Source: Riemerella anatipestifer
GTDB taxonomy: Bacteria > Bacteroidota > Bacteroidia > Flavobacteriales > Weeksellaceae
Direction of reading: 5' to 3'
Length of the DNA stretch: 64,000 nt
Assembly (NCBI RefSeq): GCF_035666175.1
Contig: NZ_CP142016.1
Span: 1,488,001-1,552,000 of the forward strand
Position numbers and translations under genes: made by a program. Position 1 is the stretch's first letter. Each line of letters starts with the position of its first letter. The notes below the pieces were generated by a model that saw only the letters and a program-made list of their open reading frames with translations, was not told the origin of the DNA and did no database searches. Below are positions 18,426 to 46,620 of the stretch, piece after piece.

Positions 18426-18804
18426 AAACTCACTTTATCCGCCCCAAAAATAGGCATAAGATTTTTAGTAAAAAAACGAATTTATTTTAATTTTTAGTAT
18501 TTAATAACAATATTTAATATTTATTATTAAATTACCAATACAAACTATACAATACACAAAAAGTAAAAACTCTTTTATAAATATGTAATTATTATCACAC
18601 TTTACCTTTAAAATGAATTTTTAATAAAATTATTAACTTTGCAAAAAACTTGCAAAGAATGCATTACAAGAACTATTTTCTAATGGAGAGTTTTTGTATT
18701 GTTATACTTTTTGCCTTCAAATCTTAAAACCAAGTGGAATTCCATACAATCCTTACATAATGAAATGGGAATGTATTACCCAAGGTTGTAGTGAATAAAA
18801 AATA
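18426..18804. other. 379-bp divergent intergenic region
   Basis: AT-rich spacer between mutL (-) and the secreted-protein genes (+). It contains a TAACTTTG -7 box (18634-18641) and a 22-codon frame (18659-18727) that matches the 5' end of the paralogues at 22566 and 25788. Nothing else recognised. Confidence 0.6.
18659..18727 (+). pseudogene. Relic 5' end of the BNR-family secreted gene
   Basis: The frame encodes MHYKNYFLMESFC... and stops after 22 codons. The first eight residues (MHYKNYFL) and the preceding bases, including the TAACTTTGCAAAAAA promoter stretch, match the starts of the paralogues at 22566 and 25788. It looks like a truncated copy of their promoter and signal-peptide region left upstream of the array. 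It could alternatively be a translated leader peptide; nothing supports that. Confidence 0.45.
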
Positions 18805-19344
18805 ATGATATTGAAAATATTATTTACTGGCATTGTATCTATTTTGTTAAATCATTGGTCTATTGCACAAGTAGCGATAGACAAAAGCACTTTACGAAGT
18901 ACAAGCTCTATTTTGGAGTTCAACGATATGAAAGAAACTAATGGCTCTGCTAAAGGCATTATACTGCCAACATTATCAGACCATTCTTTGGCTCAACAAG
19001 GTGCTTTATGGTTTGATTTACAAAACCAAAAAGTGATGTATAAATCTGCCACAGCAAATATCCCCCTTACAACTGCGGCTCCTAATCCAACAGTTGTTTC
19101 TACCTATACAGGAACAGAGAATACGGGAATAGAAGGAGTGGTCATTAGACGTACTACAGAAAATTCTTCCTCTGACGACCCTGCGGTTTTGAAATTAGAT
19201 AGTAAAAGTACTGCTTTACTACTACCTTATGTCAACGATGTAACTACTGATTTGGCAAGCCCCGAAGCAGGCACGATTGCCTACGACGGAAAGAGTAAAT
19301 CTTTGGCTATCTTTAATGGTGAACATTGGTACTTTTGGAATTAA
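18805..19344 (+). CDS. Small secreted surface-type protein
   Basis: A 179-aa exported protein with a signal peptide of about 22 residues ending HWSIAQ. It contains GIILPTLSDHS (about 50-60), SILEFNDM, and a C-terminal block ending NGEHWYFWN. The same GI(I/L)(L/I)P and NG-W patterns occur in the larger secreted proteins at 8.8-12.5 kb, so it is a short member of that Bacteroidetes group. It lies 23 nt upstream of the first BNR paralogue and is probably co-transcribed with it. Function unknown. Confidence 0.65.
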   Translation: MILKILFTGIVSILLNHWSIAQVAIDKSTLRSTSSILEFNDMKETNGSAKGIILPTLSDHSLAQQGALWFDLQNQKVMYKSATANIPLTTAAPNPTVVSTYTGTENTGIEGVVIRRTTENSSSDDPAVLKLDSKSTALLLPYVNDVTTDLASPEAGTIAYDGKSKSLAIFNGEHWYFWN

Positions 19345-19367: not shown

Positions 19368-22300
19368 ATGTACAAAAAAGTATTATTATTAACCTATTTT
19401 TATGCCTCTCTACTGATGGGGCAACAGCAAGAACTCTACGACCCCTACACACCAGAGTATTTTTCAATGGGGAAAAATGACCCTGCGTGGTTGCAACTCA
19501 TCGTAGATAATCCGAGTGGGGTTAATTTCTTTGAAATGGAAAAGAAATTTGGCGAGTGGTTAGACAGTGACCCTGATGCCAGACGCAAAACCCCAGAGAA
19601 AAAACCTGTCGTAAACTTCTACCGAAGATGGCAGAAGGCGTACAGACCATTTGTAAATGGCAAAGGGGAAATCGTGCTTCCTACCAAAAAAGATTATTTC
19701 GCCAGATTAGACAGACAAAACTTAGAAAATAGCCCAAATATCAAGAGGAGTAAACGAGATATAACAACATTCAATACAACCCCTTCTACACCCAAAAGAT
19801 GGCATAGCGTAGGACCATTTACTACGGATTATAATGGGAACGAAGGCTACCGAAAATCTTATGATTCTCACGCCAACGTTTTCAGAATCGATGTTTCTAA
19901 AACCAACCCTAATATTCTTTATTCTGGAGCAGAAACAGGCGCCGTCTTTAAAACTATAGACAAAGGAAAAACTTGGACCGCTTGTGCTTCTGATTATAAC
20001 TTCGGGACCAACATCACTGCCATTAGAATAGATCCACAAGATCCAAATACGGTATGGGTAGGTTCTACTTCTGGATTGTTTGTTAGTAACAATGGTGGTA
20101 ATAATTTTAGAAGAATAGGAAACATCACCACCACTGTAAACAGTATAAGAATAAGCGACGACAGTAAAACGGTAACTGTAGCCACAGGGGAAGCACACCG
20201 ATTTAAAGCCAGTCGTCCTAACTCAAAAATAGATGGTTTCTTCATTTCGGAAGACGGTGGTAAAGAATTTCGAAAAGTCATGAACGGAATTTTCTATGAT
20301 CACGAACTAAAACCAGGAAATTCCAAAGTGGTCTATCTTTACGGAAGAAAGGATAGAAACTGGCACTCACAACTACACATCTCCGACAACGGAGGGAAAT
20401 CTTTCAAAAAAAGTCTAACAATAAAATACGGCAATATTGCAGGACGTTTAGCGGTGAGTGATGCTAAAGGAGGAGAAAATTATCTTTATGCTTTAGTAAG
20501 TGTAGAAAAGAAAGGGCATTACTACGGAGAACCCCATATCCTACAAAGCACCGACGGAGGGATAAACTGGACGGATAAAACCCAAATAACAAACGATCTC
20601 AGAGAATATACAAACACTTTTTGCCCTTCTATTGATGGACCAAACGGTGGACAGGGGTACTACGATATGATGATAGGCGTTTCTGGGACCAATCCCGAAC
20701 ACGTGATTTTTGGATTATGCAGTGCTTACCGTTCCCTCAGAGGAGGTTCCGGAGGCTATAAAGAAACAGCCATTGGTGGCTATTGTAGTGTGAACTTTAA
20801 AATGCACGCCGATATGCAAGATATTGCCATCGCAGGCGATGAGGTGTGGATTGCCAACGATGGGGGCATTAAATACTCTGATAATTTTTTTAAAGAGGAT
20901 CACAGTGGAAAAATCACAGGAGAAGACCGAGTCAACGGCATCTATGCCAGTGACTATTACGGTTTCGGACAGGGTTGGAACGAAGATGTAATGGTGGGAG
21001 GTCGATGGCACAATGGCGATGCCGTGATGATGAAAAGTTATGGCGAAGGCAGAGCTGTCTATGTGGGCGGCGTGGAGCAGGCCACAGGCTACGTCATGGT
21101 AAGTAATCCTAAGAAAGTTTATTTTTCTGACGCAGGAATGTTCACCATGCCAGAGAATATAGAAGGAAAAACCATTTCGGATTGGAGACCGTTTGACTCC
21201 CAAAAACCTTACGAAGCCCTAAAAGTGAACGGATTTTTCGGAACAGACCCACGCTATGCCAAAAGAATTCTATATCACCCCAGAGAAAGAACAGGCAACC
21301 CTACCCGGGAGATTTGGGAAACCACAGATGAAGGGCATACTCTTAAGCAGATACATACTCCTAATGATAATATTTCTAATGTAGAGTTTGCCCGTTCTAA
21401 TCCCAATGTGATCTATGCTTGCGGACAAAGCTTCATTTATAAATCTACAAATAATGGAGCTACATGGAAACAAATAAATATGCCTCAGCTAAATGGTTTT
21501 TTTCCAAACATTACTGTAGATCCCAAAGACGAAAATAAAATATGGATAGTACAAAGCTATACTTTAGGTGGAGTAGCTTACAGTGAAAACGGTGGAGAAA
21601 CTTGGGTAAAACCATTAGAAAATAATCCCATTATGAGCAAAATAGCCTTTCGTTGGTTAGTATTGGCTGGTGATGAAACCAATGGCGTTTATTTAGGATC
21701 TGATGAAGGCTCTTATGTTTATTACAAAGACGATACGATGACGGAATGGATAAATTATTCCCAAGGCTTGCCGCCGGCAGCAAGGCTCACCCGTCTCGTT
21801 CCATTCTTCAAAGAAGGAAAACTAAGAGCCGCAACCTCACAAGGGATATGGGAAATTCCTTTATACAGACAAAAATTTACACCCGTAGCACAACCAATGG
21901 CAACCAACATTAGCCAAGCCCGATTAAATGATGCTAATATGACGGTAGAGTTTGAATCTTACTCTATTGTAAACCAAGACAAAGTTGAATGGGAATGGTC
22001 GTTTAAGCCTGAACCTCAATATGTAAGCAACAAAAAGGTAAGAAATCCCAAAGTCATATTTAAGTATAACGGCAAATACGATGTTACCCTAAAAGTTACC
22101 ACACCAGAAGGCTCCCATAGCCGAACCATTGAAAATATGATTATAGTGGACAACGGAGTGCTAGGAACCAACGAAACCCAAGCCTCTACGAATAAAGTAG
22201 CCGTTTATCCTACCTCGTTAAATTCGGGAGAAACACTTTACATAAAACGAGGCTTATCCCAAGAACAAGGAAAGTTTCGTATTTATAGTGCCGATGGAGC

Positions 22301-22439
22301 GTTGATTAAAACAGTAGAGATAGAAGCCAATTCTGGAGCGGAAATTACCGTTCCTACTCACGGATTGCAAAAGGGCGTTTACCTTTTCCAATACTCTACC
22401 TACAACCACATACACCGTGGTAAATTCATCATAAAATAA
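19368..22439 (+). CDS. T9SS-secreted BNR/PKD protein, paralogue 1
   Basis: A 1,023-aa protein destined for the surface or medium through T9SS. Layout: signal peptide (1-18, ending LLMGQ); a conserved N-domain starting ELYDPYTPEYF (about 20-125) whose SDPDARRKTPEKKP block is shared by all three copies; a beta-propeller region with at least six Asp-box (SxDxGxTW) motifs, such as DKGKTWTA, SEDGGKEF, STDGGINW, STNNGATW and SENGGETW; a PKD-like domain (about 855-935, NGKYDVTLKVTTPEG); and a T9SS type A sorting domain (about 945-1023, VAVYPTSLNSGE to GLQKGVYLFQYS and KFIIK). Asp-box propellers occur in GH74 enzymes, sialidases and sortilins; no catalytic residues could be assigned. Its C-terminal third is nearly identical to that of paralogue 2. 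Confidence 0.85.
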   Translation: MYKKVLLLTYFYASLLMGQQQELYDPYTPEYFSMGKNDPAWLQLIVDNPSGVNFFEMEKKFGEWLDSDPDARRKTPEKKPVVNFYRRWQKAYRPFVNGKGEIVLPTKKDYFARLDRQNLENSPNIKRSKRDITTFNTTPSTPKRWHSVGPFTTDYNGNEGYRKSYDSHANVFRIDVSKTNPNILYSGAETGAVFKTIDKGKTWTACASDYNFGTNITAIRIDPQDPNTVWVGSTSGLFVSNNGGNNFRRIGNITTTVNSIRISDDSKTVTVATGEAHRFKASRPNSKIDGFFISEDGGKEFRKVMNGIFYDHELKPGNSKVVYLYGRKDRNWHSQLHISDNGGKSFKKSLTIKYGNIAGRLAVSDAKGGENYLYALVSVEKKGHYYGEPHILQSTDGGINWTDKTQITNDLREYTNTFCPSIDGPNGGQGYYDMMIGVSGTNPEHVIFGLCSAYRSLRGGSGGYKETAIGGYCSVNFKMHADMQDIAIAGDEVWIANDGGIKYSDNFFKEDHSGKITGEDRVNGIYASDYYGFGQGWNEDVMVGGRWHNGDAVMMKSYGEGRAVYVGGVEQATGYVMVSNPKKVYFSDAGMFTMPENIEGKTISDWRPFDSQKPYEALKVNGFFGTDPRYAKRILYHPRERTGNPTREIWETTDEGHTLKQIHTPNDNISNVEFARSNPNVIYACGQSFIYKSTNNGATWKQINMPQLNGFFPNITVDPKDENKIWIVQSYTLGGVAYSENGGETWVKPLENNPIMSKIAFRWLVLAGDETNGVYLGSDEGSYVYYKDDTMTEWINYSQGLPPAARLTRLVPFFKEGKLRAATSQGIWEIPLYRQKFTPVAQPMATNISQARLNDANMTVEFESYSIVNQDKVEWEWSFKPEPQYVSNKKVRNPKVIFKYNGKYDVTLKVTTPEGSHSRTIENMIIVDNGVLGTNETQASTNKVAVYPTSLNSGETLYIKRGLSQEQGKFRIYSADGALIKTVEIEANSGAEITVPTHGLQKGVYLFQYSTYNHIHRGKFIIK

Positions 22440-22454
22440 ATACATTAACCAACA

Positions 22455-22482
22455 AAAGTTGCCTTCTTTGGAAGGCAACTTT
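22455..22482 (+). terminator. Terminator after paralogue 1
   Basis: Perfect 12-bp stem AAAGTTGCCTTC / GAAGGCAACTTT with a TTTG loop. An identical copy follows paralogue 2. Confidence 0.85.
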
Positions 22483-22539
22483 ATCATTTCATAACCTTTC
22501 AGCAACATTACTTTAATAAGAAGCTTTTCATAAAATCCT

Positions 22540-22547
22540 TAACTTTG
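22540..22547 (+). promoter_or_regulatory. -7 box of paralogue 2
   Basis: TAACTTTG, matching TANNTTTG, 18 nt before the ATG at 22566. It overlaps an in-frame TTG at 22545, which argues that the real start is the ATG. The same box occurs at 18634 and 25762. A clear -33 TTG is missing. Confidence 0.45.
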
Positions 22548-22565
22548 CAAAAAATTTCAATTAAA

Positions 22566-25500
22566 ATGCATTACAAGAACTATTTTTTAGTAGCTGGTCT
22601 TTGTGTTGCGATGCTTTTCAAAGCTCAACAAACTCAACCAGAACTTTACGACCCCTACACACCAGAGTATTTCTCGGTGGGGAAAAATGACCCTGCGTGG
22701 TTGCAACTCATCGTGGATAATCCGAGTGGGGTTAATTTCTTTGAAATGGAAAAGAAATTTGGCGAATGGCTGGACAGCGATCCTGACGCCAGACGCAAAA
22801 CACCAGAGAAAAAACCTGCCGTAAACTTCTACCGAAGATGGCAGAAGGCATATAGACCTTTTGTAAACGGTAACGGAGAGATTGTACTTCCTAAAAAAGA
22901 GGACTACCTCGCTAAGCTGGACAGACAAAACCAAAGAAGTAACCAAACAATGGTAAAACACCAACGCGGAGGTTTAACTACTTTGGGAACTAATTCTACT
23001 CCTGCAAACACAAATAAATGGCGGAATATAGGTCCTTACTCCACGGATTACAATAGCCAGCACGAAGGATATAAACCGTCTTATGACTCCCACGCTAATG
23101 TATTTAGAATAGATGTTTCTAAAACTAATCCTAATATTCTCTACTCTGGGGCAGAAACTGGAGCGGTATTTAAAACTACTGATAAAGGTAAAAATTGGAC
23201 AGCTTGTGCTTCCGATTATAACTTTGGAGCTAATATTACCGCCATTAGAATAGACCCAAAAGACCCAAATACCGTATGGGTAGGTTCTACTTTAGGTCTA
23301 TTTGTGAGTGATGATGGAGGAAATAGTTTTAGAAGAATAAATAACATTACCACCACAGTCAACAGTATAAGAGTGAGTGATGACAGAAAAACAGTAACTG
23401 TAACCACAGGAGAATCACATAAATTGGGTGGAGGCAATAAATCAGATAATCGTAAAGATGGGTTTTACCGTTCCACAGATAGTGGTAAAACCTTCAATAG
23501 AATAATCAGCGGCATTTTCTATGACCACGAACTAAAACCTAATAATTCTAATGTTGTCTATCTTTATGGAAGAAAGCAAGGAGAATGGTACTCTAAACTC
23601 TATATATCTAACAATGGTGGTGGGAGTTTTGATAACGGTAGAGAGGTATTATCTGGAGCTAGGATAGGACGATTAGCAGTAAGTGATGCCCCTAATGGAG
23701 AAAATTATATCTATGCTTTAGTCACTGTACAAAAAAAAGGCTATCACTACGGGGAGCCTCATATCCTTCAGAGTACTAATGGAGGACAAAGTTGGACAGA
23801 TAAAACCAAAATAACAAATAATATTAGTGAATATCAAAACACATTCTGCCCAACGATTGATGCCCCAAACGGCGGACAAGGCTATTACGATATGATGATA
23901 GGCGTTTCTGGAACCAACCCTGAACATGTTATTTTTGGATTGTGTAGTGCGTACTGTTCTCTTAACGGAGGAGAGGGAGGATACAAAGACACAGCCATCG
24001 GAGGCTATTGTAACTTTAAGATGCACGCCGATATGCAAGATATTGCCATTGTAGGTGATGAAGTATGGATTGCCAACGATGGAGGCATTAAATACTCTCC
24101 TAATTTCTTTAAAAAAGACGAAAATGGTAATATGACAACAGAAAACCGTGTAAAAGGAATTTATGCTAGTGATTACTATGGGTTTGGGCAAGGCTGGAAC
24201 GAAGATGTAATGGTGGGAGGTAGATGGCACAATGGAGATGCCGTAATGATGGAAAACTACGGAGAAGGTAATGCCGTATATGTGGGAGGTGTGGAACAAG
24301 CTACAGGCTATGTGATGGTAAGCAATCCTAAGAAAGTTTACTTTTCTGATGCAGGAATGTTCACTATGCCAAATAATATAGATGGTAAGTTAAATGCAGA
24401 TTATTTTGCCTTTGACAGGAAAAAACCCTACGAAGCTCTAAGAGCCAATGGCTTTTTAGGAACAGACCCTCGCTATGCTCAACGAATTTTATATCATGCA
24501 GCAGAAGGCCACTGGGGAACTCCTCTAAGGCAAATTTGGGAAACACTTGATGAAGGAACTAATTATAGTTTGTTATATAACCCATCAGACAATATCTCTA
24601 ACATAGAGTTCGCTCGTTCTAATCCTAACGTAATTTATGCTTGTGGGCAATACGATATTTATAAGTCAATAAATAATGGTCAAAGTTGGACTTCATTTAA
24701 AATGCCTCAATTCAACGGCTTTTTCCCTACCATTGCTGTGGATCCTAAAAATGAAAACAAAATATGGGTAGTACAAGGCTACACTAACGGTGGCGTAGCT
24801 TATAGCGAAGACAGCGGACAAACTTGGGTAAAACCGCTGGAAAACGATGCCGATATGAAAAATATAGCCTTCCGTTGGATTGTATTGGCAGGAGATGAGC
24901 ATAACGGGGTTTATCTAGGATCTGACGAAGGTTCTGCCGTTTACTATAAAGACGACACTATGGACAAATGGATTAACTATTCCAACGGTTTGCCACCTGC
25001 AGCAAGACTTACTCGTTTAATCCCTTTCTTTAAAGAGGGCAAACTAAGAGCCGCTACCTCGCAAGGGATATGGGAAATTCCTTTATACAGACAAAAATTT
25101 ACACCCGTAGCACAACCAATGGCAACCAACATTAGCCAAGCCCGATTAAATGATGCTAATATGACGGTAGAGTTTGAATCTTACTCTATTGTAAACCAAG
25201 ACAAAGTTGAATGGGAATGGTCGTTTAAACCTGAACCTCACTATGTAAGCAACAAAAAGGTAAGAAATCCCAAAGTCATATTTAAGTATAACGGCAAATA
25301 CGATGTTACCCTAAAAGTTACCACACCAGAAGGCTCCCATAGCCGAACCATTGAAAATATGATTATAGTGGACAACGGAGTGCTAGGAACCAACGAAACC
25401 CAAGCCTCTACGAATAAAGTAGCCGTTTATCCTACCTCGTTAAATTCGGGAGAAACACTTCACATAAAACGAGGCTTATCCCAAGAACAAGGGAAGTTCC

Positions 25501-25661
25501 GTATTTATAGTGCCGATGGAGCGTTGATTAAAACAGTAGAGATAGAAGCCAATTCTGGAGCGGAAATTACCGTTCCTACTCACGGATTGCAAAAGGGCGT
25601 TTACCTTTTCCAATACTCTACCTACAACCACATACATCGTGGCAAATTCATCATAAAATAA
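22566..25661 (+). CDS. T9SS-secreted BNR/PKD protein, paralogue 2
   Basis: 1,031 aa from the ATG (MHYKNYFLVAGLCVAML, signal peptide about 1-21); the in-frame TTG seven codons upstream lies in the promoter. Domain order is as in paralogue 1: N-domain with LYDPYTPEYF and SDPDARRKTPEKKP, Asp-box propeller (DKGKNWTA, STDSGKTF, STNGGQSW, SINNGQSW, SEDSGQTW), PKD-like domain, T9SS type A tail. It is a mosaic: the N-terminal 135 codons are identical to paralogue 3, the last 200 almost identical to paralogue 1, while the propeller centre is distinct from both. This suggests gene conversion or unequal crossover with diversification of the centre. Ligand or substrate unknown. Confidence 0.85.
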   Translation: MHYKNYFLVAGLCVAMLFKAQQTQPELYDPYTPEYFSVGKNDPAWLQLIVDNPSGVNFFEMEKKFGEWLDSDPDARRKTPEKKPAVNFYRRWQKAYRPFVNGNGEIVLPKKEDYLAKLDRQNQRSNQTMVKHQRGGLTTLGTNSTPANTNKWRNIGPYSTDYNSQHEGYKPSYDSHANVFRIDVSKTNPNILYSGAETGAVFKTTDKGKNWTACASDYNFGANITAIRIDPKDPNTVWVGSTLGLFVSDDGGNSFRRINNITTTVNSIRVSDDRKTVTVTTGESHKLGGGNKSDNRKDGFYRSTDSGKTFNRIISGIFYDHELKPNNSNVVYLYGRKQGEWYSKLYISNNGGGSFDNGREVLSGARIGRLAVSDAPNGENYIYALVTVQKKGYHYGEPHILQSTNGGQSWTDKTKITNNISEYQNTFCPTIDAPNGGQGYYDMMIGVSGTNPEHVIFGLCSAYCSLNGGEGGYKDTAIGGYCNFKMHADMQDIAIVGDEVWIANDGGIKYSPNFFKKDENGNMTTENRVKGIYASDYYGFGQGWNEDVMVGGRWHNGDAVMMENYGEGNAVYVGGVEQATGYVMVSNPKKVYFSDAGMFTMPNNIDGKLNADYFAFDRKKPYEALRANGFLGTDPRYAQRILYHAAEGHWGTPLRQIWETLDEGTNYSLLYNPSDNISNIEFARSNPNVIYACGQYDIYKSINNGQSWTSFKMPQFNGFFPTIAVDPKNENKIWVVQGYTNGGVAYSEDSGQTWVKPLENDADMKNIAFRWIVLAGDEHNGVYLGSDEGSAVYYKDDTMDKWINYSNGLPPAARLTRLIPFFKEGKLRAATSQGIWEIPLYRQKFTPVAQPMATNISQARLNDANMTVEFESYSIVNQDKVEWEWSFKPEPHYVSNKKVRNPKVIFKYNGKYDVTLKVTTPEGSHSRTIENMIIVDNGVLGTNETQASTNKVAVYPTSLNSGETLHIKRGLSQEQGKFRIYSADGALIKTVEIEANSGAEITVPTHGLQKGVYLFQYSTYNHIHRGKFIIK

Positions 25662-26192
25662 ATACATTAACCAACAAAAGTTGCCTTCTTTGGAAGGCAA
25701 CTTTATCATTTCATAACCTTTCAGCAACATTACTTTAATAAGAAGCTTTTCATAAAATCCTTAACTTTGCAAAAAATTTCAATTAAAATGCATTACAAGA
25801 ACTATTTTTTAGTAGCTGGTCTTTGTGTTGCGATGCTTTTCAAAGCTCAACAAACTCAACCAGAACTTTACGACCCCTACACACCAGAGTATTTCTCGGT
25901 GGGGAAAAATGACCCTGCGTGGTTGCAACTCATCGTGGATAATCCGAGTGGGGTTAATTTCTTTGAAATGGAAAAGAAATTTGGCGAATGGCTGGACAGC
26001 GATCCTGACGCCAGACGCAAAACACCAGAGAAAAAACCTGCCGTAAACTTCTACCGAAGATGGCAGAAGGCATATAGACCTTTTGTAAACGGTAACGGAG
26101 AGATTGTACTTCCTAAAAAAGAGGACTACCTCGCTAAGCTGGACAGACAAAACCAAAGAAGTAACCAAACAATGGTAAAACACCAACGCGGA
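25062..26192 (+). repeat. 1,131-bp direct repeat, second copy
   Basis: Joins the 3' third of paralogue 2, its terminator, and the promoter and 5' end of paralogue 3. Partner of 21840-22970. Recombination between the two would delete or duplicate one 3,222-bp unit and leave intact reading frames. Confidence 0.9.
25677..25704 (+). terminator. Terminator after paralogue 2
   Basis: Same 12-bp stem and TTTG loop as at 22455-22482, within the duplicated block. Confidence 0.85.
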
Positions 26193-28895
26193 CTCACCGC
26201 CCTAGCGACGACTCCTACCACTAACAAATGGAAAAATATTGGTCCTTTTTCCACAGCTAGAAACACTCCTAATCCAGACCCTGATGGGAATTATTATGTA
26301 GAATCCTATGACTCCCATGCCAATGTTTTTAGGATAGATGTATTTAAAAAAGATGCTAATATCCTCTATTCGGGAGCTGAAACAGGAGCCGTATTTAAAA
26401 CTACTGATAAAGGTAAAAATTGGACAGCCTGTGCTTCCGATTTTAACTTCGGAACTAATATCACTGCTATTAGAATAGACCCTAACAATGCCGATATTGT
26501 ATGGGTAGGTTCTACTTCAGGACTATTTGTAAGTAAAAATGGGGGAATATCCTTTGATAGAATAAAAGAAATTACTACTACCGTAAATAGTATAAGGGTA
26601 AGTAATGATGGTAAGATTGTAACTGTAACTACTGGTGAGCAACACAAATTCAATGCTAGTAAACCCAACACAAAGGTAGATGGATTCTTTATTTCGGAGG
26701 ATAAAGGTGCTACATTTCGTAGAGTAATGAGTGGTATTTTCTACGACCACGAATTAAAACCTAACAATTCTAAAGTAGTCTACCTTTATGGACGAAAAGA
26801 TACAAATTGGCATTCTCAATTATATATTTCTTACGACGGTGGTAAAAATTTCGACAATGGTAGAGATGTTTTATCAGGAGCCAGACCGGGCCGTTTAGCG
26901 GTGAGTGATGCTCCAGGAGGAGAAAACTATCTTTATGCCTTGGTAAATGTAGAAAACTCTGCTTATTCTTATGGACAGCCTCATATTCTGCAAAGTAAAG
27001 ACGCTGGACTGACTTGGACGGATAAAACCACTATAACCAGTAATAGAAATGAAACTAAAAACACCTTTTGCTATGCAATAGATGGCAAAAACGGAGGGCA
27101 AGGCTATTACGATATGATGATAGGCGTATCAGGCAAAGATCCAGAGCATGTAATTTTCGGTCTATGTAGTGCCTATCGTTCCCTCAAAGGAGGGGAGGGC
27201 GGTTATTTTCACAACTCCATAGGAGGTTACTGCAACGGCAACTTCTCAATACACGCCGATATGCAAGACATTGCCATCGCAGGCGATGAAGTTTGGATAG
27301 CCAACGATGGAGGCATCAAATACTCACCTAACTTTTTTAAAAGAGATAATGAGGGGAAAATAACAGGGGAAAACCGTATAAAAGGCATCTATGCGAGTGA
27401 TTATTGGGGTTTCGGGCAAGGTTGGAACGAAGATGTAATGGTTGGTGGTAGATGGCACAATGGCGATGCCGTAATGATGGAAAACTATGAAAAAGGCAAA
27501 GCGGTTTATGTAGGGGGAGTAGAGTATCCCACAGGTTATGTAATGGTAAGCAACCCTAAGAAAGTCTATTTCTCTGACTCAGGTATGTTTACGATGCCGA
27601 ACAATATAGAAGGGAGAGTAACAACAGATTACCGAGCATTCATCAAACAACCTTATGAAACATTAAGAACCCACGGTTTCTTCGGAACAGATCCTCGCTA
27701 CGCACAACGAATTTTATACCATCCAAAAGAAGGTGCTTGGAGTGCCACTATGCAAATCTGGGAAACACCAGACGAAGGCGTTACCTCTAGTTTACTATAT
27801 GATGCACAAGAATACATTTCTAACATAGAATTTGCCCGTTCTAATCCTAATGTAATTTATGCTTGCGGACGATACTTCATCTATAAGTCTGTGGATAATG
27901 GGAAAAGCTGGAGTCAATTATCAATACCTAAACCTGGTGGGGTTGCCTCCTATATAGCTGTAGATCCGAAAGACGAAAACAAAGTTTGGTTGGTACAGTT
28001 CGTTACCAGCGGAAAGAATGGAGGGCTTCTTTATAGTGAAGATGGAGGGCAAAGCTGGAAAAATGTTCTAGAAAATAGCCCTACAATGAGAGACAAAGAA
28101 TTCCGTTGGATTATACTAGCTGGAGACCAGACCAATGGCGTTTATTTAGGGTCAGAAAGTGGGGCTTATGTTTATTACAAAGACGATACTATGAGCGACT
28201 GGATTGACTATTCTAATGGGCTACCCCCTGCAGCAAGGCTTACCCGTTTAGTGCCGTTCTTTAAAGAAGGTAAACTAAGAGCCGCTACCTCACAGGGGAT
28301 ATGGGAAATACCTCTATACCGAGAAAACTTTACACCTGTGGCACAACCAATGGCAACCAACATTAGCCAAGCCCGATTAAATGATGCTAATATGACGGTA
28401 CAGTTTGAGTCTTATTCCATCGTCAATCAGAAAGATGCTCAATGGGAATGGTCTTTTAGTCCTAAACCACATTCCATAGACAACCCTAAGGCAAGAAACC
28501 CTAAAGTAGTCTTTAAGTACAACGGCGAATATGATGTTACTCTAAAGGTTAAAACTCCTCAAGGCGAACATTCTCGTACCATTAAAAAAATGATTATAGT
28601 AGATAATGGAGTACTAGGAACTAGCGAAACTCAAACCTCTAATCCTAAGAAAGTAGAAGTTTATCCTACCCTACTAAATCAAGGTGATAATATTCATATC
28701 AAAATGGGAGTAACTAGAGAGAAGGCTCAATTCCGCCTCTATGACGCAAGTGGTACTTTGGTGAAAACCGAAGATATAGAAACTAACACACCACAGGAAG
28801 TTACTATCTCTACTCAAGGTTTACCTAAAGGCGTTTACCTCTTCCAATATTCTACTTACAGCTATATACAAAGAGGTAAATTAGTTATTAAATAA
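25788..28895 (+). CDS. T9SS-secreted BNR/PKD protein, paralogue 3
   Basis: 1,035 aa from the ATG, preceded by a TAACTTTG box at 25762-25769. Signal peptide, N-domain, Asp-box propeller (DKGKNWTA, SKNGGISF, SEDKGATF, SKDAGLTW, SVDNGKSW, SEDGGQSW), PKD-like domain (NGEYDVTLKVKTPQG) and T9SS type A tail (VEVYPTLLNQGD to GLPKGVYLFQYS, ending KLVIK). The 5' 400 bp are identical to paralogue 2, whereas its PKD and sorting domains differ from the other two apart from a short SQARLNDANMTV segment. It ends the array and is followed by a GC-rich structured region, not by the terminator used by copies 1 and 2. Confidence 0.85.
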   Translation: MHYKNYFLVAGLCVAMLFKAQQTQPELYDPYTPEYFSVGKNDPAWLQLIVDNPSGVNFFEMEKKFGEWLDSDPDARRKTPEKKPAVNFYRRWQKAYRPFVNGNGEIVLPKKEDYLAKLDRQNQRSNQTMVKHQRGLTALATTPTTNKWKNIGPFSTARNTPNPDPDGNYYVESYDSHANVFRIDVFKKDANILYSGAETGAVFKTTDKGKNWTACASDFNFGTNITAIRIDPNNADIVWVGSTSGLFVSKNGGISFDRIKEITTTVNSIRVSNDGKIVTVTTGEQHKFNASKPNTKVDGFFISEDKGATFRRVMSGIFYDHELKPNNSKVVYLYGRKDTNWHSQLYISYDGGKNFDNGRDVLSGARPGRLAVSDAPGGENYLYALVNVENSAYSYGQPHILQSKDAGLTWTDKTTITSNRNETKNTFCYAIDGKNGGQGYYDMMIGVSGKDPEHVIFGLCSAYRSLKGGEGGYFHNSIGGYCNGNFSIHADMQDIAIAGDEVWIANDGGIKYSPNFFKRDNEGKITGENRIKGIYASDYWGFGQGWNEDVMVGGRWHNGDAVMMENYEKGKAVYVGGVEYPTGYVMVSNPKKVYFSDSGMFTMPNNIEGRVTTDYRAFIKQPYETLRTHGFFGTDPRYAQRILYHPKEGAWSATMQIWETPDEGVTSSLLYDAQEYISNIEFARSNPNVIYACGRYFIYKSVDNGKSWSQLSIPKPGGVASYIAVDPKDENKVWLVQFVTSGKNGGLLYSEDGGQSWKNVLENSPTMRDKEFRWIILAGDQTNGVYLGSESGAYVYYKDDTMSDWIDYSNGLPPAARLTRLVPFFKEGKLRAATSQGIWEIPLYRENFTPVAQPMATNISQARLNDANMTVQFESYSIVNQKDAQWEWSFSPKPHSIDNPKARNPKVVFKYNGEYDVTLKVKTPQGEHSRTIKKMIIVDNGVLGTSETQTSNPKKVEVYPTLLNQGDNIHIKMGVTREKAQFRLYDASGTLVKTEDIETNTPQEVTISTQGLPKGVYLFQYSTYSYIQRGKLVIK

Positions 28896-29031: not shown

Positions 29032-29933
29032 CTATCTCCAATTTCTATGTTCTTTAATATCAGATTTTTTAATTCCTTTATTTATTTTATAGGCAAACCC
29101 TACACCTAGAGTTTGTTTTAATTGGGTTTTTCTGATTTGGTTATGGTCGTATAATAAATCAAGAGTAATTACAGAAGAAACATACTTGTTAATCTTCATA
29201 TTAAGCACCCCATTGTAGCCCAACACCAATCTTTCGGGGTGATTAAGATAATCGGACAATACAGAGGCTGTATTAACGAGTGATATATTCTCCATCAGTT
29301 GTACCTTATAAATAGCCGTCCCCAAAAAACCAAATTGAAATAAAGAAGAATCCCCATCATTTTTTAAACCAAAATTTCCAGATTTTTGTAAGTCTTTATC
29401 CAGCACCAAAGTCCATCTTGCATTAGCAGGTCTTAAGGTAATTGTAAGGTCTTCGTGAGGTCTATAAGTAAAACCTGCACCAGCCATTATATAGCCAGGA
29501 GCCATAAAATTAGATATTTTTTTAGCAGAAGGGTCATTACCATTCTCATAGCCGGGAGCAAATTGAGTTTGCAGGCTAACTCCGCCAGACGCATACCAAT
29601 TGTGAGAAATTTTTCTGCCGTAGTTAGAAGAAAGGTTGATGATATCTTGAGTTTTTCTGCTCCCTGTACCTTTAGTATTATTTTGCCCATAGCCTAATAC
29701 CACTATGTTCTCCCAAAGGTCTTTACCTTTCTCATAAGTCATATTGTAGTTAGTACCTGCTAGCCAACCCACATTATTAGCTCCACCACCTACCCAGTTA
29801 GAGAAGGCCGCCTGGTTAAGCATAAGTGTGTTTGCCCTACTATAGACCAATGTTTGGTACTATCTGATACTGTTTCTTGTGCTGATGCTACCGTACCCAC
29901 AACAGCCAACGCCATAAAAAGTGTCTTTTTCAT
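29032..29933 (-). pseudogene. DUF3078-family outer-membrane protein with a one-base frameshift
   Basis: The natural start is at 29933 (MKKTLFMALAVVGTVASAQ, a clear signal peptide), but the frame breaks after WSIVGQ. The rest of the protein (NTLMLNQAAFSNWVGGGANNVGWLAG onward) is in another frame. Adding one A to the AAA run at 29833-29831 (minus strand) restores WSIVGQNTLMLNQAAF, as expected for DUF3078 proteins (recall). The body is rich in beta-strands and probably forms an outer-membrane barrel. Either the gene is inactivated, or it switches by slippage, or the base is a sequencing error. The 272-codon frame starting MVYSRANTL is not the natural start. Confidence 0.8.
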
Positions 29934-33987: not shown

Positions 33988-34983
33988 ACCCGTTGTGCAT
34001 TATGAAATGAAAAAAACAAGAGTTGTTTATTAGACTGAAAATAAGTATTATTTAAAATGCACAACGAGTTTTTGCTATAAAACGATATAAATGAACAACA
34101 TAGAGCAAATATATGAAAGAATTTTGGAAGTTTTAGGACTTTTTTCAGAAAATCAACTGATTAGTTATCAGAGAAGAACACCTAAAATGAGCGATTTAGA
34201 AGTCATAAGTCTTAATATTACTGCTGAATACTTGAGTATTGATAGCGAATTACAGTTATTTAGAAAATTGCCAAACTCTCTGATAAACAAAATTGAAAGA
34301 AGTGTTTACAATAAGCGAAAACGAAGACTATCCCTACAAACAGAGCAAATTAGACAGCGTATTTCGATGGAGTTCAATGAGTTTGAAGATATTTTTATCG
34401 TTGATAGCATGCCAATGAAAGTTTGTGAAAATGCTCGTTCTACTCGTTCAAAAATTTGTAAAGAGCAATCCTATTCTTCACCAACATATGGTTATTGTGC
34501 TTCACAGAAATTATATTTCTATGGCTATAAACTACACGCAGTATGTTCTTTAAATGGTGTGATTAAGAATTTTGATATAAGCCCTGCATCCGTTCACGAC
34601 ATCCACTATTTAAAAGATATTGGTGAGCAAATGCGAAACTGTACTTTAATTGGAGATAGAGGCTATTTATCAGCAAAAGTTCAAATAGATTTATTTAACT
34701 ATGCTAATATTAAATTAGATACACCAATGAGAAGTAATCAGAAAGATTATATTCCTCAATTTTCATTGTACAAGAAAAAGCGAAAACGAATTGAGACATT
34801 TTTCTCTCAACTTTGCGACCAATTTATGATTAAAAGAAACTATGCTAAAACTTTTGAAGGCTTTAAAACAAGGATAATCAGTAAAATAACCGCCGCAACG
34901 GTTATTCAATATATCAATAAATTTATCTTCCAAAGAAAATTAAATCATCTAAAAATCAGTATTATTTAAAATGCACAACGAGT
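33988..34983 (+). mobile_element. IS982-family element copy B (996-bp form)
   Basis: Terminal repeats ACCCGTTGTGCATT (left) and, at the right, the complement of ACTCGTTGTGCATT. It is 16 bp longer than copies C, D and F because a right-end sequence is embedded near its left end: 33988-34069 has both a left and a right IS terminus. No target duplication is visible, and the left side abuts remnant A. It resembles Riemerella ISRa1 (recall). Confidence 0.9.
34091..34969 (+). CDS. IS982-family transposase, copy B
   Basis: A 292-aa DDE transposase. The likely catalytic triad is D105 (FIVDSMPMK), D189 (LIGDRGYLS) and E235 (KRIETFFSQ), preceded by an N-terminal helical DNA-binding region with PKMSDLEVISL (31-41). 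Identical at protein level to copy E; copies C, D and F differ by one or two residues. The frame is intact, so the element is probably still mobile. Confidence 0.95.
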   Translation: MNNIEQIYERILEVLGLFSENQLISYQRRTPKMSDLEVISLNITAEYLSIDSELQLFRKLPNSLINKIERSVYNKRKRRLSLQTEQIRQRISMEFNEFEDIFIVDSMPMKVCENARSTRSKICKEQSYSSPTYGYCASQKLYFYGYKLHAVCSLNGVIKNFDISPASVHDIHYLKDIGEQMRNCTLIGDRGYLSAKVQIDLFNYANIKLDTPMRSNQKDYIPQFSLYKKKRKRIETFFSQLCDQFMIKRNYAKTFEGFKTRIISKITAATVIQYINKFIFQRKLNHLKISII

Positions 34984-35481: not shown

Positions 35482-36461
35482 ACCCGTTGTGCATTATGAA
35501 ATGAAAAAAACAAGAGTTGTTTATTAGACTGAAAATCAGTATATTGTTTTTGCTATAAAACGATATAAATGAACAACATAGAGCAAATATATGAAAGAAT
35601 TTTGGAAGTTTTAGGACTTTTTTCAGAAAATCAACTGATTAGTTATCAGAGAAGAACACCTAAAATGAGCGATTTAGAAGTCATAAGTCTTAATATTACT
35701 GCTGAATACTTGAGTATTGATAGCGAATTACAGTTCTTTAGAAAATTGCCAAACTCTCTGATAAACAAAATTGAAAGAAGTGTTTACAATAAGCGAAAAC
35801 GAAGACTATCCCTACAAACAGAGCAAATTAGACAGCGTATTTCGATGGAGTTCAATGAGTTTGAAGATATTTTTATCGTTGATAGCATGCCAATGAAAGT
35901 TTGTGAAAATGCTCGTTCTACTCGTTCAAAAATTTGTAAAGAGCAATCCTATTCTTCACCAACATATGGTTATTGTGCTTCACAGAAATTATATTTCTAT
36001 GGCTATAAACTACACGCAGTATGTTCTTTAAATGGTGTGATTAAGAATTTTGATATAAGCCCTGCATCCGTTCACGACATCCACTATTTAAAAGATATTG
36101 GTGAGCAAATGCGAAACTGTACTTTAATTGGAGATAGAGGCTATTTATCAGCAAAAGTTCAAATAGATTTATTTAACTATGCTAATATTAAATTAGATAC
36201 ACCAATGAGAAGTAATCAGAAAGATTATATTCCTCAATTTTCATTGTACAAGAAAAAGCGAAAACGAATTGAGACATTTTTCTCTCAACTTTGCGACCAA
36301 TTTATGATTAAAAGAAACAATGCTAAAACTTTTGAAGGCTTTAAAACAAGGATAATCAGTAAAATAACCGCCGCAACGGTTATTCAATATATCAATAAAT
36401 TTATCTTCCAAAGAAAATTAAATCATCTAAAAATCAGTATTATTTAAAATGCACAACGAGT
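35482..36461 (+). mobile_element. IS982-family element copy C (980 bp)
   Basis: Canonical 980-bp form, flanked by the 7-bp target duplication TAATAAA (35475-35481 and 36462-36468), the sign of a simple insertion into the DUF1648 gene. Confidence 0.95.
35569..36447 (+). CDS. IS982-family transposase, copy C
   Basis: Intact 292-aa frame with the same D105, D189 and E235. It differs from copy B at residue 56 (Phe for Leu) and residue 254 (Asn for Tyr); neither is a catalytic position, so activity is plausible. Confidence 0.95.
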   Translation: MNNIEQIYERILEVLGLFSENQLISYQRRTPKMSDLEVISLNITAEYLSIDSELQFFRKLPNSLINKIERSVYNKRKRRLSLQTEQIRQRISMEFNEFEDIFIVDSMPMKVCENARSTRSKICKEQSYSSPTYGYCASQKLYFYGYKLHAVCSLNGVIKNFDISPASVHDIHYLKDIGEQMRNCTLIGDRGYLSAKVQIDLFNYANIKLDTPMRSNQKDYIPQFSLYKKKRKRIETFFSQLCDQFMIKRNNAKTFEGFKTRIISKITAATVIQYINKFIFQRKLNHLKISII

Positions 36462-39215: not shown

Positions 39216-40046
39216 ATGAAGATAAAAGACCATTTTCTTTCTCAAGAAATTTTTGAACTTAAAGAAACCTCCATTAATGGTATCTTAAAAACAGAGCCTG
39301 TACCTGAAAATATTGGCAAATATTACGAGAGTGATAAGTACATTTCCCATCATCAGGACAGTGGTAGTTTAAAGGAATTTGTTTATAAATTTATACAAAG
39401 TTTCAACATTAAATACAAGGCTAAAATAGTTAGGGAAAATCTTTCTGCTCCTAATTCTAAAAACTGTAAAATTTTAGACTACGGTTGTGGAGCAGGTGAA
39501 TTTATAAAATCCCTAGAAAATAAATACATTACTTACGGCTACGAACCCAACGAAAAAGCTAGAAACTTCGCTAAGAAAAAAAGTTTTAAAACAAAATTTA
39601 TAGACTCTCTGAACGAAATAGAAGATAATACATTAGACATTATAAGTCTATGGCATGTCTTCGAACATATAGAAAATCAGAAAGAAATACTAGATTTATT
39701 CAAGCAAAAATTGAAATCTGATGGAACACTCATTATTGCTGTTCCCAATTATAAATCTTACGACGCCGAAAGATACCAAGATTTTTGGGCGGCTTATGAT
39801 GTGCCTAGACACCTATTTCATTTCTCAAGAGAAGGAATGGAAACACTAATGCAACAGGAACAACTTAAAATAAAAAAAATAGCACCTCTCCTACTTGATG
39901 CGTTTTATATTTCTATACTTAGCGAAAAATACAAAAAAAATAAACTTTTTTGGCTTTTTGGAGGTATCTATGGAGCGATTTCTAATTTTAAAGCGTCAAA
40001 AACGGGAGATTTTTCTAGTTTGATATATATAGTCAAAAAAAAATAG
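39216..40046 (+). CDS. Class I SAM-dependent methyltransferase
   Basis: A 276-aa soluble protein. The SAM-binding motif is ILDYGCGAGEFIKSL (about 86-100), followed by an acidic end of beta-2 (YEPNEKA), then LDIISLWHVFEHIEN (about 140-154) and LIIAVPNY. An N-terminal part (residues 1-75), with EYFY-like aromatic residues near KYYESDKYISH, resembles sugar/lipid O- or C-methyltransferases of the Methyltransf_23 group. The substrate cannot be told. It starts 17 nt after the palindromic mnmG terminator and ends before a bidirectional terminator. Confidence 0.8.
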   Translation: MKIKDHFLSQEIFELKETSINGILKTEPVPENIGKYYESDKYISHHQDSGSLKEFVYKFIQSFNIKYKAKIVRENLSAPNSKNCKILDYGCGAGEFIKSLENKYITYGYEPNEKARNFAKKKSFKTKFIDSLNEIEDNTLDIISLWHVFEHIENQKEILDLFKQKLKSDGTLIIAVPNYKSYDAERYQDFWAAYDVPRHLFHFSREGMETLMQQEQLKIKKIAPLLLDAFYISILSEKYKKNKLFWLFGGIYGAISNFKASKTGDFSSLIYIVKKK

Positions 40047-40096
40047 AAAATGGATTTTTACCCCATTTATTAAAGTCGTTTTTTTGTAAAATTTAC

Positions 40097-40128
40097 AAAA
40101 AGCCCAACTTTATAAAGCTGGGCTTTTA
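40097..40128. terminator. Bidirectional terminator
   Basis: Arms AAAAGCCCA and TGGGCTTTT enclose a second small palindrome, CTTTATAAAG. It separates the methyltransferase (+) from the DUF6705 pseudogene (-). A similar AAACCCAG/CTGGGCTTT hairpin follows the intact paralogue. Confidence 0.85.
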
Positions 40129-40723
40129 TGTACTCTATTGCTTAATCACAAAAATAGAATTTTGTGGTAAAGTGGTTTGATAAGTTTCATAATTAGGACA
40201 TCTTTCAGGATTATACCAAATTTTATCTCTATCAAAAAATATCCTCATTTTATTAGGCTACTTAGAATATACTTCCATAAATACCACTCCAGAATCATTA
40301 CATTCTGTATTGATTATTAAGTTCATCATGTAAATATTTCTTTGAAAATTATCTCCATGAAAATAAATTTTATCATCATTTCTTTCTGATAAAGTACTGT
40401 ATGTTACCTTTCCATTGCTATCTTGTACCTGCATTCTTCCAATCAATAAATCTCTATATAAACCTTTTCCACTACCATATTTGATTCTTTTGTTAAATTT
40501 AAAAGTATAAATTTTACCATTATATGTTCCTTTCCATATGCCCACAAATTTATCTAACCTATTATCTACATCTTTTACATAAGTGAGATATTCTAAATCA
40601 GGACAACCTTCGGATTGGTAGTTAGGTCTATTAACACAATCTTCCAATTGCTTTAGTGTTCCTATTGATTGTTGTGTGTAAACTATATTTACCAAGAATA
40701 CCGTTAGTAAATAACTTAATATT

Positions 40724-41703
40724 ACCCGTTGTGCATTATGAAATGAAAAAAACAAGAGTTGTTTATTAGACTGAAAATCAGTATATTGTTTTTGCTATAA
40801 AACGATATAAATGAACAACTTAGAGCAAATATATGAAAGAATTTTGGAAGTTTTAGGACTTTTTTCAGAAAATCAACTGATTAGTTATCAGAGAAGAACA
40901 CCTAAAATGAGCGATTTAGAAGTCATAAGTCTTAATATTACTGCTGAATACTTGAGTATTGATAGCGAATTACAGTTATTTAGAAAATTGCCAAACTCTC
41001 TGATAAACAAAATTGAAAGAAGTGTTTACAATAAGCGAAAACGAAGACTATCCCTACAAACAGAGCAAATTAGACAGCGTATTTCGATGGAGTTCAATGA
41101 GTTTGAAGATATTTTTATCGTTGATAGCATGCCAATGAAAGTTTGTGAAAACGCTCGTTCTACTCGTTCAAAAATTTGTAAAGAGCAATCCTATTCTTCA
41201 CCAACATATGGTTATTGTGCTTCACAGAAATTATATTTCTATGGCTATAAACTACACGCAGTATGTTCTTTAAATGGTGTGATTAAGAATTTTGATATAA
41301 GCCCTGCATCCGTTCACGACATCCACTATTTAAAAGATAGTGGTGAGCAAATGCGAAACTGTACTTTAATTGGAGATAGAGGCTATTTATCAGCAAAAGT
41401 TCAAATAGATTTATTTAACTATGCTAATATTAAATTAGATACACCAATGAGAAGTAATCAGAAAGATTATATTCCTCAATTTTCATTGTACAAGAAAAAG
41501 CGAAAACGAATTGAGACATTTTTCTCTCAACTTTGCGACCAATTTATGATTAAAAGAAACTATGCTAAAACTTTTGAAGGCTTTAAAACAAGGATAATCA
41601 GTAAAATAACCGCCGCAACGGTTATTCAATATATCAATAAATTTATCTTCCAAAGAAAATTAAATCATCTAAAAATCAGTATTATTTAAAATGCACAACG
41701 AGT
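40724..41703 (+). mobile_element. IS982-family element copy D (980 bp)
   Basis: Canonical form with the 8-bp target duplication TTAATATT (40716-40723 and 41704-41711), inserted in the signal-peptide codons of the DUF6705 gene. Confidence 0.95.
40811..41689 (+). CDS. IS982-family transposase, copy D
   Basis: Intact 292-aa frame with the DDE residues. Differences from copy B are Leu for Ile at residue 4 (shared with copy F) and Ser for Ile at residue 177. Residue 4 links copies D and F as close relatives. Confidence 0.95.
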   Translation: MNNLEQIYERILEVLGLFSENQLISYQRRTPKMSDLEVISLNITAEYLSIDSELQLFRKLPNSLINKIERSVYNKRKRRLSLQTEQIRQRISMEFNEFEDIFIVDSMPMKVCENARSTRSKICKEQSYSSPTYGYCASQKLYFYGYKLHAVCSLNGVIKNFDISPASVHDIHYLKDSGEQMRNCTLIGDRGYLSAKVQIDLFNYANIKLDTPMRSNQKDYIPQFSLYKKKRKRIETFFSQLCDQFMIKRNYAKTFEGFKTRIISKITAATVIQYINKFIFQRKLNHLKISII

Positions 41704-41741
41704 TTAATATTATTTTTTTCATTTTTTTATGTTTTTAAAAA

Positions 41742-41856
41742 TTATGGGCAGTCACTAGACTGTATTCTGTTGTTATTTCCCAAAGTTTTATTTTCTACAG
41801 TACCATTATTTTAGTCTTATACAAAGATATACCTTTTACTTTCATCTTATCTTTTA
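41742..41856 (-). pseudogene. Orphan 3' fragment of a second JAMM-like lipoprotein gene
   Basis: About 37 codons matching the last codons of the lipoprotein gene at 42490-43929: KDKMKVKGISLYKTK here, KDEMKINGVSLYKTK there. A one-base loss in an A-run then shifts the frame; the downstream bases still align with NKTLGNNNRIQSSDCP and its stop. The 19-nt spacing to the following DUF6705 start equals that in the intact pair. It is a duplicated C-terminal cassette without its N-terminal part. Confidence 0.8.
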
Positions 41857-41870
41857 ACTTTATAAAAGAA

Positions 41871-41898
41871 AAACCCAGCATAGTATATACTGGGCTTT
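41871..41898 (-). terminator. Terminator after the intact DUF6705 gene
   Basis: On the minus strand, AAAGCCCAG pairs with CTGGGTTT around an AT-rich loop. It lies 7 nt beyond the stop at 41905. Confidence 0.7.
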
Positions 41899-41904
41899 TA
41901 TGTC

Positions 41905-42471
41905 CTATTGCTTTGTTAGTATAATCTCTTCATTAGGTATGGTTACTTCATAAGTTTCATAATTAGGACATCTTTCAGGATTATACCAAATTTTGTCTCT
42001 ATCCATATAAAGACGCATTTTGTTAGGTTGCTTAGAATAAACCTCCATAAACACCACTCCAGAATCATTACATTCTGTATTCGCTATAAAATCCATCATA
42101 TAAGTTCTTCGTTGAAAGGTCCAGCCACTAAAATAAGTTTTATCATCATCTTCATTAAAGGTATTATAAATAATCTTTCCATTTCTATCTGTGATTTTAA
42201 GCCTTCCTATCAAAAAATCCCATCTTACCTCATATTTATCATCATTTAATTTTTTTACAAAATTAAATTCATATGTTTTTCCATTATATATTCCCTTCCA
42301 TGTACCTACAAATCTATTTAAATCACCGTTAATATCTTTTGCATAAGATACATCTTCAGGAATTCCATTAGGAGATTTTGAGTATTCGTATGCTTGGGCT
42401 AATGATATTGTTCTTTGGGCATTAAAACAATGTACTATACCCAAAAGTATTATTAATATTATTTTTTTCAT
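41905..42471 (-). CDS. DUF6705-like exported protein, copy A
   Basis: A 188-aa exported protein: signal peptide MKKIILIILLGIVHCFNAQ, then a beta-rich domain with FVGTWKGIYNGKTYEF (about 53-68), two cysteines (TECND, ERCPNY) and MRLYMDRDKIWYNPERCPNY near the end. The FVGTWKG start is shared with DUF6705 proteins (recall), a lipocalin-like or calycin-like design of unknown function. It follows the JAMM-like lipoprotein by 18 nt, so the two are made together. The tandem paralogue at 40.1 kb has the same placement after a lipoprotein fragment. An immunity or chaperone role is a hypothesis only. Confidence 0.75.
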   Translation of the reverse strand: MKKIILIILLGIVHCFNAQRTISLAQAYEYSKSPNGIPEDVSYAKDINGDLNRFVGTWKGIYNGKTYEFNFVKKLNDDKYEVRWDFLIGRLKITDRNGKIIYNTFNEDDDKTYFSGWTFQRRTYMMDFIANTECNDSGVVFMEVYSKQPNKMRLYMDRDKIWYNPERCPNYETYEVTIPNEEIILTKQ

Positions 42472-42489
42472 TTTTTATATTTTTAAAAA

Positions 42490-43929: not shown

Positions 43930-44094
43930 ATTTTATCTTTTTTTGTTATTGTTTTTTATTGGTTAGTCCCCTTCGGAACGGACTTTTATCCCGTAGTTTA
44001 CGACCTGTTACCCCCTTATCAACCCCTTTTTTATCCCTTCTGGAGGGGGCGGGTATCTAAATAACGCCTCCTGCACCTCTAAAATAGCCCCTCC

Positions 44095-44616
44095 TTATAG
44101 TAAGCAAGGGGAATTAGAGGGGTTAGTTAGTCGGTTCGGAGGGCTTAGCAACGGGGCTTTTGCCCTTCCTCCGGGGTATTGTTGCTTAAGGTCGGTGTAG
44201 ATAATGCCCGCTCCAGGGTCGTTATTGGTAGCTGCCACCTTTATCGCACGGTAAAACATCAGGGCAGCACCGTCCAAATCGTAGCCCAAGAGGAGATTGG
44301 TATCCTTCATTAGTTGCAGTTGTTGGTCTAGGAGGTTGATGAGTTCGTTGAGCTGTTTGTGGGCGGCGTAGTCTTGGTCGAACTCCGTTTTGTCCACATA
44401 AGCAGGGACTTTGGTCGGGTTGGCGTCCATTTGGAGCTTCACACGGTCTATCCAAACCTCCTTTTCGTACTTTACCCGCCCGAAACCTTGCCTTTCCGTA
44501 GGCGTAAGGCTCTTTACTTTACCTTCTAAAACACTAGCAATGGTGCTGATAGCGTCTTTCACTTTTTTGATTTCTTCTGTACTGAAGTTTACAGAAATGG
44601 TGTTCTCTTGTGCCAT
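44095..44616 (-). CDS. Conserved Bacteroidetes helical protein, unknown function
   Basis: A 173-aa soluble protein, mainly helical: ISVNFSTEEIKKVKDAISTIAS (about 7-28) and DQQLQLMKDTNLLLGYDLDGAALMFYRAIK (about 97-126). It has no signal peptide. The region from LLGYDLDGAALMFYR to YPGG is typical of a small Bacteroidetes family I cannot name. The last about 25 residues (PLLSPPNRLTNPSNSPCLL) are low-complexity and encoded by more GC-rich DNA, possibly a readthrough into non-coding sequence after loss of the original stop. No clear link to the lipoprotein locus downstream. Confidence 0.6.
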   Translation of the reverse strand: MAQENTISVNFSTEEIKKVKDAISTIASVLEGKVKSLTPTERQGFGRVKYEKEVWIDRVKLQMDANPTKVPAYVDKTEFDQDYAAHKQLNELINLLDQQLQLMKDTNLLLGYDLDGAALMFYRAIKVAATNNDPGAGIIYTDLKQQYPGGRAKAPLLSPPNRLTNPSNSPCLL

Positions 44617-46540: not shown

Positions 46541-46566
46541 ACATTTTTTTACTAGTTTTATAAAAT

Positions 46567-46595: not shown

Positions 46596-46620
46596 TCATT
46601 TTTGTGTTTTAATTAGAATA

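Follow-up and report, generated by a model that had tools for sequence, protein, structure and literature searches.

Three tandem paR1 genes of Riemerella anatipestifer are old mosaic alleles joined by nearly identical junction blocks

Results

Layout of the array

In the window, that is the whole 64-kb stretch of Riemerella anatipestifer DNA that was analysed, three intact paR1 genes (A, B and C) stand in tandem on the + strand. The bodies of these genes are old, and the junction blocks J1 and J2, which join A to B and B to C, are the recent part of the array. The features are listed below; G001 and G002 are the two close relatives with an intact paR1 that made up the comparison set.

18599..18711, + strand: leader, an upstream motif of the TAACTTTG type and a truncated gene start resembling the starts of B and C
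18805..19344, + strand: small ORF, 179 aa, 96-98% identical and identically placed in G001 and G002
19368..22439, + strand: paR1 copy A, 1023 aa
21840..22970, + strand: junction block J1, the last 199 codons of A, the intergenic stretch and the first 135 codons of B
22455..22482, no strand assigned: hairpin in J1, 12 pairs, with a terminator-like call on the minus strand only
22566..25661, + strand: paR1 copy B, 1031 aa, with a C-like start, an A-like end and a body unlike both
25062..26192, + strand: junction block J2, the last 199 codons of B, the intergenic stretch and the first 135 codons of C
25788..28895, + strand: paR1 copy C, 1035 aa, its end lying outside any recent block

The start of copy B was set at the ATG at 22566, inside an ORF listed from TTG 22545, and that of copy C at the ATG at 25788, inside an ORF listed from TTG 25767. 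Copy A is made up of an N-terminal part, a BNR/sortilin-like propeller body, a PKD-like part and a T9SS type A C-terminal domain. The gene order mutL - small ORF - paR1 is common to the window, G001 and G002, and at E 0.001 neither Pfam nor NCBIfam matched the small ORF (18805-19344). The truncated gene at the leader consists of an ATG, 22 codons and a stop; the leader is 77-80% alike within the window, and its G002 and G001 versions match the junction block at 79-81%. The leader may be what is left of an earlier unit, or no more than a shared promoter. In the former case, units were gained and lost at this locus before the lineages of the window, G001 and G002 split.

Identity of the genes and predicted secretion

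Judged by their sequences, A, B and C are copies of paR1, the gene of a T9SS-secreted protective duck antigen of R. anatipestifer; they occupy the orthologous place and are homologous to PaR1 over the full length. G001 and G002 have one paR1 orthologue each, at the corresponding locus. The single orthologue of G002 encodes 1039 aa (117.29 kDa) with an 18-aa leader and a C-terminal domain from residue 962, and it was taken as PaR1 by its length, mass, leader and C-terminal domain position; the mass of PaR1 (AS87_RS06600) has been printed as 117.29 kDa (PMC6549377). It agrees with the PaR1 of strain Yb2 in the 1039-aa length, the leader length and the start of the C-terminal domain. PMC9874225, however, prints 117,222.2 Da and a pI of 8.44 for the Yb2 protein, while 117,293.3 and 8.60 were computed for that of G002, thus the latter is not letter-for-letter the Yb2 PaR1. 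The same paper gives 99.9% identity between the PaR1 of Yb2 and that of the type strain, and 83.8-100% between strains. The proteins of the array were 73-78% identical to the G002 orthologue and 72-78% identical to the two orthologues taken together, in both cases over the full length.

The sequence-only reading had described the genes as a tandem triplet of T9SS BNR/PKD proteins, and the domain searches bear this out: Pfam Sortilin-Vps10 was above the cut-off in all three, the PKD matches were near it, and TIGR04183, the T9SS type A sorting domain, scored 27.1, 26.8 and 25.8 bits in A, B and C (cut-off 23). PF18962 scored below its cut-off (27) in A, B and C alike when the proteins were scanned; in the genome search it rose above this value for C alone. 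The three proteins are thereby predicted T9SS type A cargo, secretion itself being known for the Yb2 protein. According to PMC9874225, Yb2 PaR1 was present in those spots of the culture supernatant that were the most immunogenic, in a T9SS-dependent manner, and anti-PaR1 antibodies did not bind whole cells, which does not agree with the earlier suggestion that the array is a route to surface variation.

The AlphaFold model was weak (pLDDT 62, pTM 0.41). Its top fold matches were chains of GH74 xyloglucanases and of sortilin/Vps10 propellers, with TM scores by query of 0.15-0.24 and identities of 9-16% over the 50 matches listed. A model of such low confidence permits no claim of an enzyme activity.

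Copy number and distribution

In the published survey, 26 of 33 strains had one paR1 copy and seven had two or three (PMC9874225), so the variation in copy number between strains implied by the sequence-only reading does occur. Strains 20190509E1-1 and 20190507E1-1 are named there among the seven. The genome of the window (2.57 Mb, 2 contigs, 99.98% completeness) has a second contig of 9,748 bp that is fully covered at 100% identity by plasmid p20190509E1-1 of a goose isolate; the 13,667-bp plasmid of strain 20190507E1-1 also contains it at 100%. The genome is therefore probably that of strain 20190509E1-1 or of a near clone, one of the seven multi-copy strains.

Of the six genomes of the genus (that of the window counted), four matched at E <= 1e-100. 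The genome of the window has three copies and G001 and G002 have a single one; in G003 the gene is split over two frames (L017:8475-11500, the split lying near 9788). No match was found at this threshold in the other two, G004 and G005. In the family search (320 genomes) nine genomes matched at E <= 1e-80 and 20 at 1e-12, the 11 additional ones at 26-33% identity. G256, a genome from a different genus with 80% completeness, carries a paR1 relative directly followed by a second, partial one (L023:352-4862), about 49% and 33% identical to copy B. A distant relative of 1,410 aa (about 25-28%; L018:3278-7507, L016:13554-17786) is found elsewhere in the genome of the window, and in G001 it lies about 4 kb downstream of paR1. 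Twelve plasmid records matched, none over 80% of the query and all under 60% identity; 15 stretches of viral contigs matched a pattern and none of them encoded a paR1 relative. No donor array was found among the genomes searched.

Age and constraint of the alleles

Synonymous divergence was computed against G002. The set comprised the 45 window ORFs of at least 150 aa, 41 of which were entered, the four left out being three ORFs antisense inside paR1 and 40258-40755. After removal of the three paR1 copies, three ORFs with no G002 match (8814, 11004, 52368) and five transposase ORFs, which were set aside because they all matched one G002 copy, 30 comparison genes were left. Their dS values were 0.00-0.65 (median 0.145), and those of mutL and the small ORF just upstream of paR1 were 0.02 and 0.03. 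Against the same genome, A, B and C gave dS values of 1.66-1.71, which are near saturation and consequently rough. The top value among the 30 genes (0.65) belonged to 29032-29850, which adjoins the end of the array and may have been carried along in exchanges.

The ten pairs of the five alleles gave dS 1.3-2.4 and dN/dS 0.07-0.13. The bodies of A, B and C differed pairwise by dS 1.4-1.9, in agreement with the earlier statement that the centres outside the blocks are diverged, with dN/dS 0.11-0.12. Since this divergence is mostly synonymous, with dN/dS of about 0.1, the centres are old alleles under constraint and are not fast-evolving. The proposal that they diversify rapidly was thus contradicted along the paralogues, where the dN/dS of about 0.1 points to constraint and not to selection on the centres, and where the top 40-codon pN/pS in sliding windows was 0.42. 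The three copies are not recent duplicates of one another, since the distance of the G001 and G002 orthologues from A, B and C is about that between A, B and C themselves, and since in the propeller trees the orthologues fall among the copies; the earlier dismissal of a simple recent duplication was correct in this respect.

The ends of the genes are heterogeneous. B and C have no difference in the 134 codons compared at the start, and B and A differ at the end by a dS of 0.04, while the body of B is at dS 1.4 from A and 1.7 from C. The start of A, on the other hand, is at dS 0.96-0.98 from the other four alleles and the end of C at 1.2-2.0 from the others. G001 and G002 differed by 0.49 and 0.27 in the ends and by 1.35 in the body. 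The idea of homogenised ends therefore stands for the junction alone. Constant ends with a variable propeller, taken as a general rule, were rejected: the ends of A and C are unlike, as are the starts of A and B, and the pattern holds only at the junction. Base composition was uninformative as to a foreign origin, the GC3 of the copies (0.34-0.37) lying within the spread of 31 chosen window ORFs (0.292, sd 0.074).

Two features elsewhere in the window were recorded. Five ORFs of 292 aa (34091-34969, 35569-36447, 40811-41689, 51210-52088 and 60896-61774) are each 99-100% identical to one G002 ORF (L077:16789-17664); by name and length on a plasmid record they are taken to be the IS982-type ISRa1 transposase. 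Apart from transposase ORFs, the genes of 39216-51050 differ from those of G002 by a dS of 0.00-0.06, which is less than in most of the window. In G002 (L077) their order and strand are reversed and they lie between insertion-sequence ORFs, which looks like a recent exchange or inversion. Within this stretch, 46621-51050 is presumably a TonB/SusC-like pair.

Mosaic structure

Different regions of the alleles gave different trees. A and B grouped together (95/97) in the first propeller half, against C, G001 and G002 (83/78, weak), in the second half A, G002 and B did (100/98) with C outside, and at the C-terminal end A and B were joined again (100/100); at the N-terminal end B and C are identical. 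These trees had 11-12 rows and were calculated with LG+G4 without mixture, with long outgroup branches flagged and several forks left open. A PHI-type test, run with our own script on the 309 informative sites of the propeller in the five sequences, gave 0.535 as compared with 0.592 (sd 0.009) after shuffling, and none of 2,000 shuffles was as low, so the recombination test called for by the sequence-only reading was positive. Patches of high identity also switch partner: 84-91% between A and G002, 91-92% between C and G002, 97% between G001 and G002. Taken together, the region trees, the PHI-type test and the partner-switching patches mean that the paR1 alleles are mosaics and that alleles of different genomes have exchanged pieces.

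The propeller bodies do not group by genome, and paralogues closer to each other than to orthologues, the mark of concerted evolution, were seen only at the junction (the A-B end and the B-C start). The commonest informative split in the propeller was nevertheless A+B (48 of 309 sites), and A-B was the closest protein pair in the window (81% vs 72 and 76%). A and B may thus have an older paralogous history partly in common, which counts against a pure allele pool.

Junction blocks

The near-identity of 21840-22970 and 25062-26192 that had been noticed at first was confirmed: J1 and J2, 1,131 bp each at an exact offset of 3,222 bp, differ by 7 mismatches (99.4% identity), located at 22007, 22019, 22239, 22271, 22277, 22415 and 22421, and their final 549 bp are identical. 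Both edges are sharp. On the left, 56 mismatches fall within the 226 bp of 21614-21839, and the identity of A and B over the 300 bp preceding the block is 77%. Past the block, B and C are 69% identical in the best ungapped comparison (23000-23300). The block matches five places in the genome of the window, namely J1 and J2 in full and, at 74-88%, three partial matches (the end of C, 74%; the start of A, 88%; the remnant 18606-18711, 79%).

Each block contains a gene end, the 12-pair hairpin, an upstream stretch and the start of the next gene. The sequence-only reading had also given it a terminator and a promoter; the ends and the hairpin were recovered, but the terminator was called on the minus strand only and the two sigma-70 matches in the block were near the shuffled mean of 0.9 (sd 0.8). 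Upstream of copy B the motif TAACTTTG is present at 22540-22547, which we take to be a promoter motif of the Bacteroidota -7 type.

Since the offset of 3,222 bp is 3 x 1,074 bp, J1 and J2 share one frame, and it follows from the coordinates that by crossing over between them the array would lose or gain one unit of 3,222 bp with whole genes kept, just as had been proposed. All 7 mismatches fall in the 597-bp gene-end part, and the remaining 534 bp are free of them. When the block was divided at the stop codon, a cut chosen post hoc, this skew had P values of 0.011 for all sites and 0.006 for weakly constrained sites, and a scan test for a clean run of the observed length gave 0.075. If the unevenness is real, it hints that there was more than one event and that conversion acted too.

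Discussion

Origin of the array

Copy B combines the start of C, the end of A and the body of neither, hence an unequal crossover within the genome is insufficient unless an import or a later conversion is added. We are inclined, with due reserve, to the explanation that one paR1 gene grew to three by the gain of a foreign unit through homologous recombination. A, B and C would be old divergent alleles from a pool common to related lineages, between which homologous recombination, probably by way of natural transformation, would swap pieces of the gene and sometimes add a unit. At the last gain a foreign B body would have been placed between A and C through the junction of gene end, intergenic stretch and gene start, and the junction would have been duplicated to J1 and J2 in the process. 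As direct repeats in one frame, these could later delete or re-add a gene by crossover, and conversion could keep the two alike. As a result, strains would come to differ in how many versions of a secreted, antibody-eliciting protein they encode, and in which. We infer transformation as the source, the insertion as the cause of the identity of J1 and J2, and any immune relevance of three copies. R. anatipestifer is naturally competent (PMC8459023).

Gene conversion is a less probable explanation, yet one to be taken seriously. Here the A-B-C array would itself be old, and one or more recent events would have transferred about 1.1 kb from one junction to its counterpart. Conversion of this kind, between two old junctions, would leave an identical footprint and needs no insertion event, the bodies of A, B and C are all old, and the uneven spread of the 7 mismatches fits repeated conversion. 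What nevertheless favours the gain of a unit is that gains are needed anyway, since G001, G002 and 26 of the 33 published strains have single copies, and that, if a unit came in through the junction, the duplicate is accounted for with no further event.

An expansion or misjoin of the assembly at the repeat is very improbable. Short-read assemblers can be misled by repeats of about 1.1 kb, but the three bodies are distinct and the junctions are not identical, the genome is nearly closed (2 contigs, 99.98% completeness), and strains with two or three copies have been published (PMC9874225); moreover, the study of the likely source strain reports complete genomes from Nanopore and Illumina hybrid data. 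The concern about a collapsed or expanded assembly raised in the sequence-only reading is thus largely removed. A recent tandem duplication, with rapid diversifying selection acting on the propeller centres thereafter, would account for strongly differing centres between alike blocks, but it can practically be dismissed in view of the dN/dS of 0.11-0.12 at dS 1.4-1.9 among the three bodies, the single-copy orthologues that branch among A, B and C, and a 40-codon pN/pS that nowhere exceeds 0.42.

Relation to known systems and significance

The loci pilE/pilS, opa and Msp2 are bacterial antigen loci diversified by recombination. Like the paR1 array, they have divergent copies with common stretches that enable antigen change. 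Unlike pilE/pilS, opa and Msp2, the array has no silent cassettes, that is, unexpressed partial copies feeding one site, as A, B and C are by their sequences complete ORFs.

The paR1 gene and the variation of its copy number were already known, PMC9874225 giving one to three copies per strain, in line with the three found here; the tandem layout and the junction blocks are features of the present array. The tandem arrangement, junction blocks, mosaic alleles and excess divergence were not found in the literature searched, which consisted of openly available main texts; among the papers listed, that on PaR1 alone dealt with this locus. Relative to that literature, the tandem junction layout, the mosaic alleles, the dS excess over the neighbouring genes and the finding that the copies are not recent duplicates are new.

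PaR1 is a candidate vaccine antigen whose cross-protection is patchy. According to PMC9874225, the immunised ducklings that survived challenge numbered two of ten for WJ4, four of ten for Yb2 and none for HXb2. The immunising protein was that of Yb2, to which the PaR1 proteins of WJ4 and HXb2 are 84.5% and 85.5% identical. Tentatively, and as a possibility to which we give less weight than to the gain of a foreign unit as such, paR1 could be a recombination-driven antigen locus, with an old pool of mosaic alleles, tandem stacking in some strains and a frame-preserving junction repeat as the exchange point, at which natural transformation would bring in, remove or swap whole antigen genes under selection by host immunity. 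If strains do draw from an old allele pool and hold up to three alleles, a single-allele vaccine would cover only a part of them, and typing by the content and number of paR1 genes could be informative. In evolutionary terms, the array is a compact example of a recent exchange point that is legible down to the single base, amid alleles that far exceed the neighbouring genes in age.
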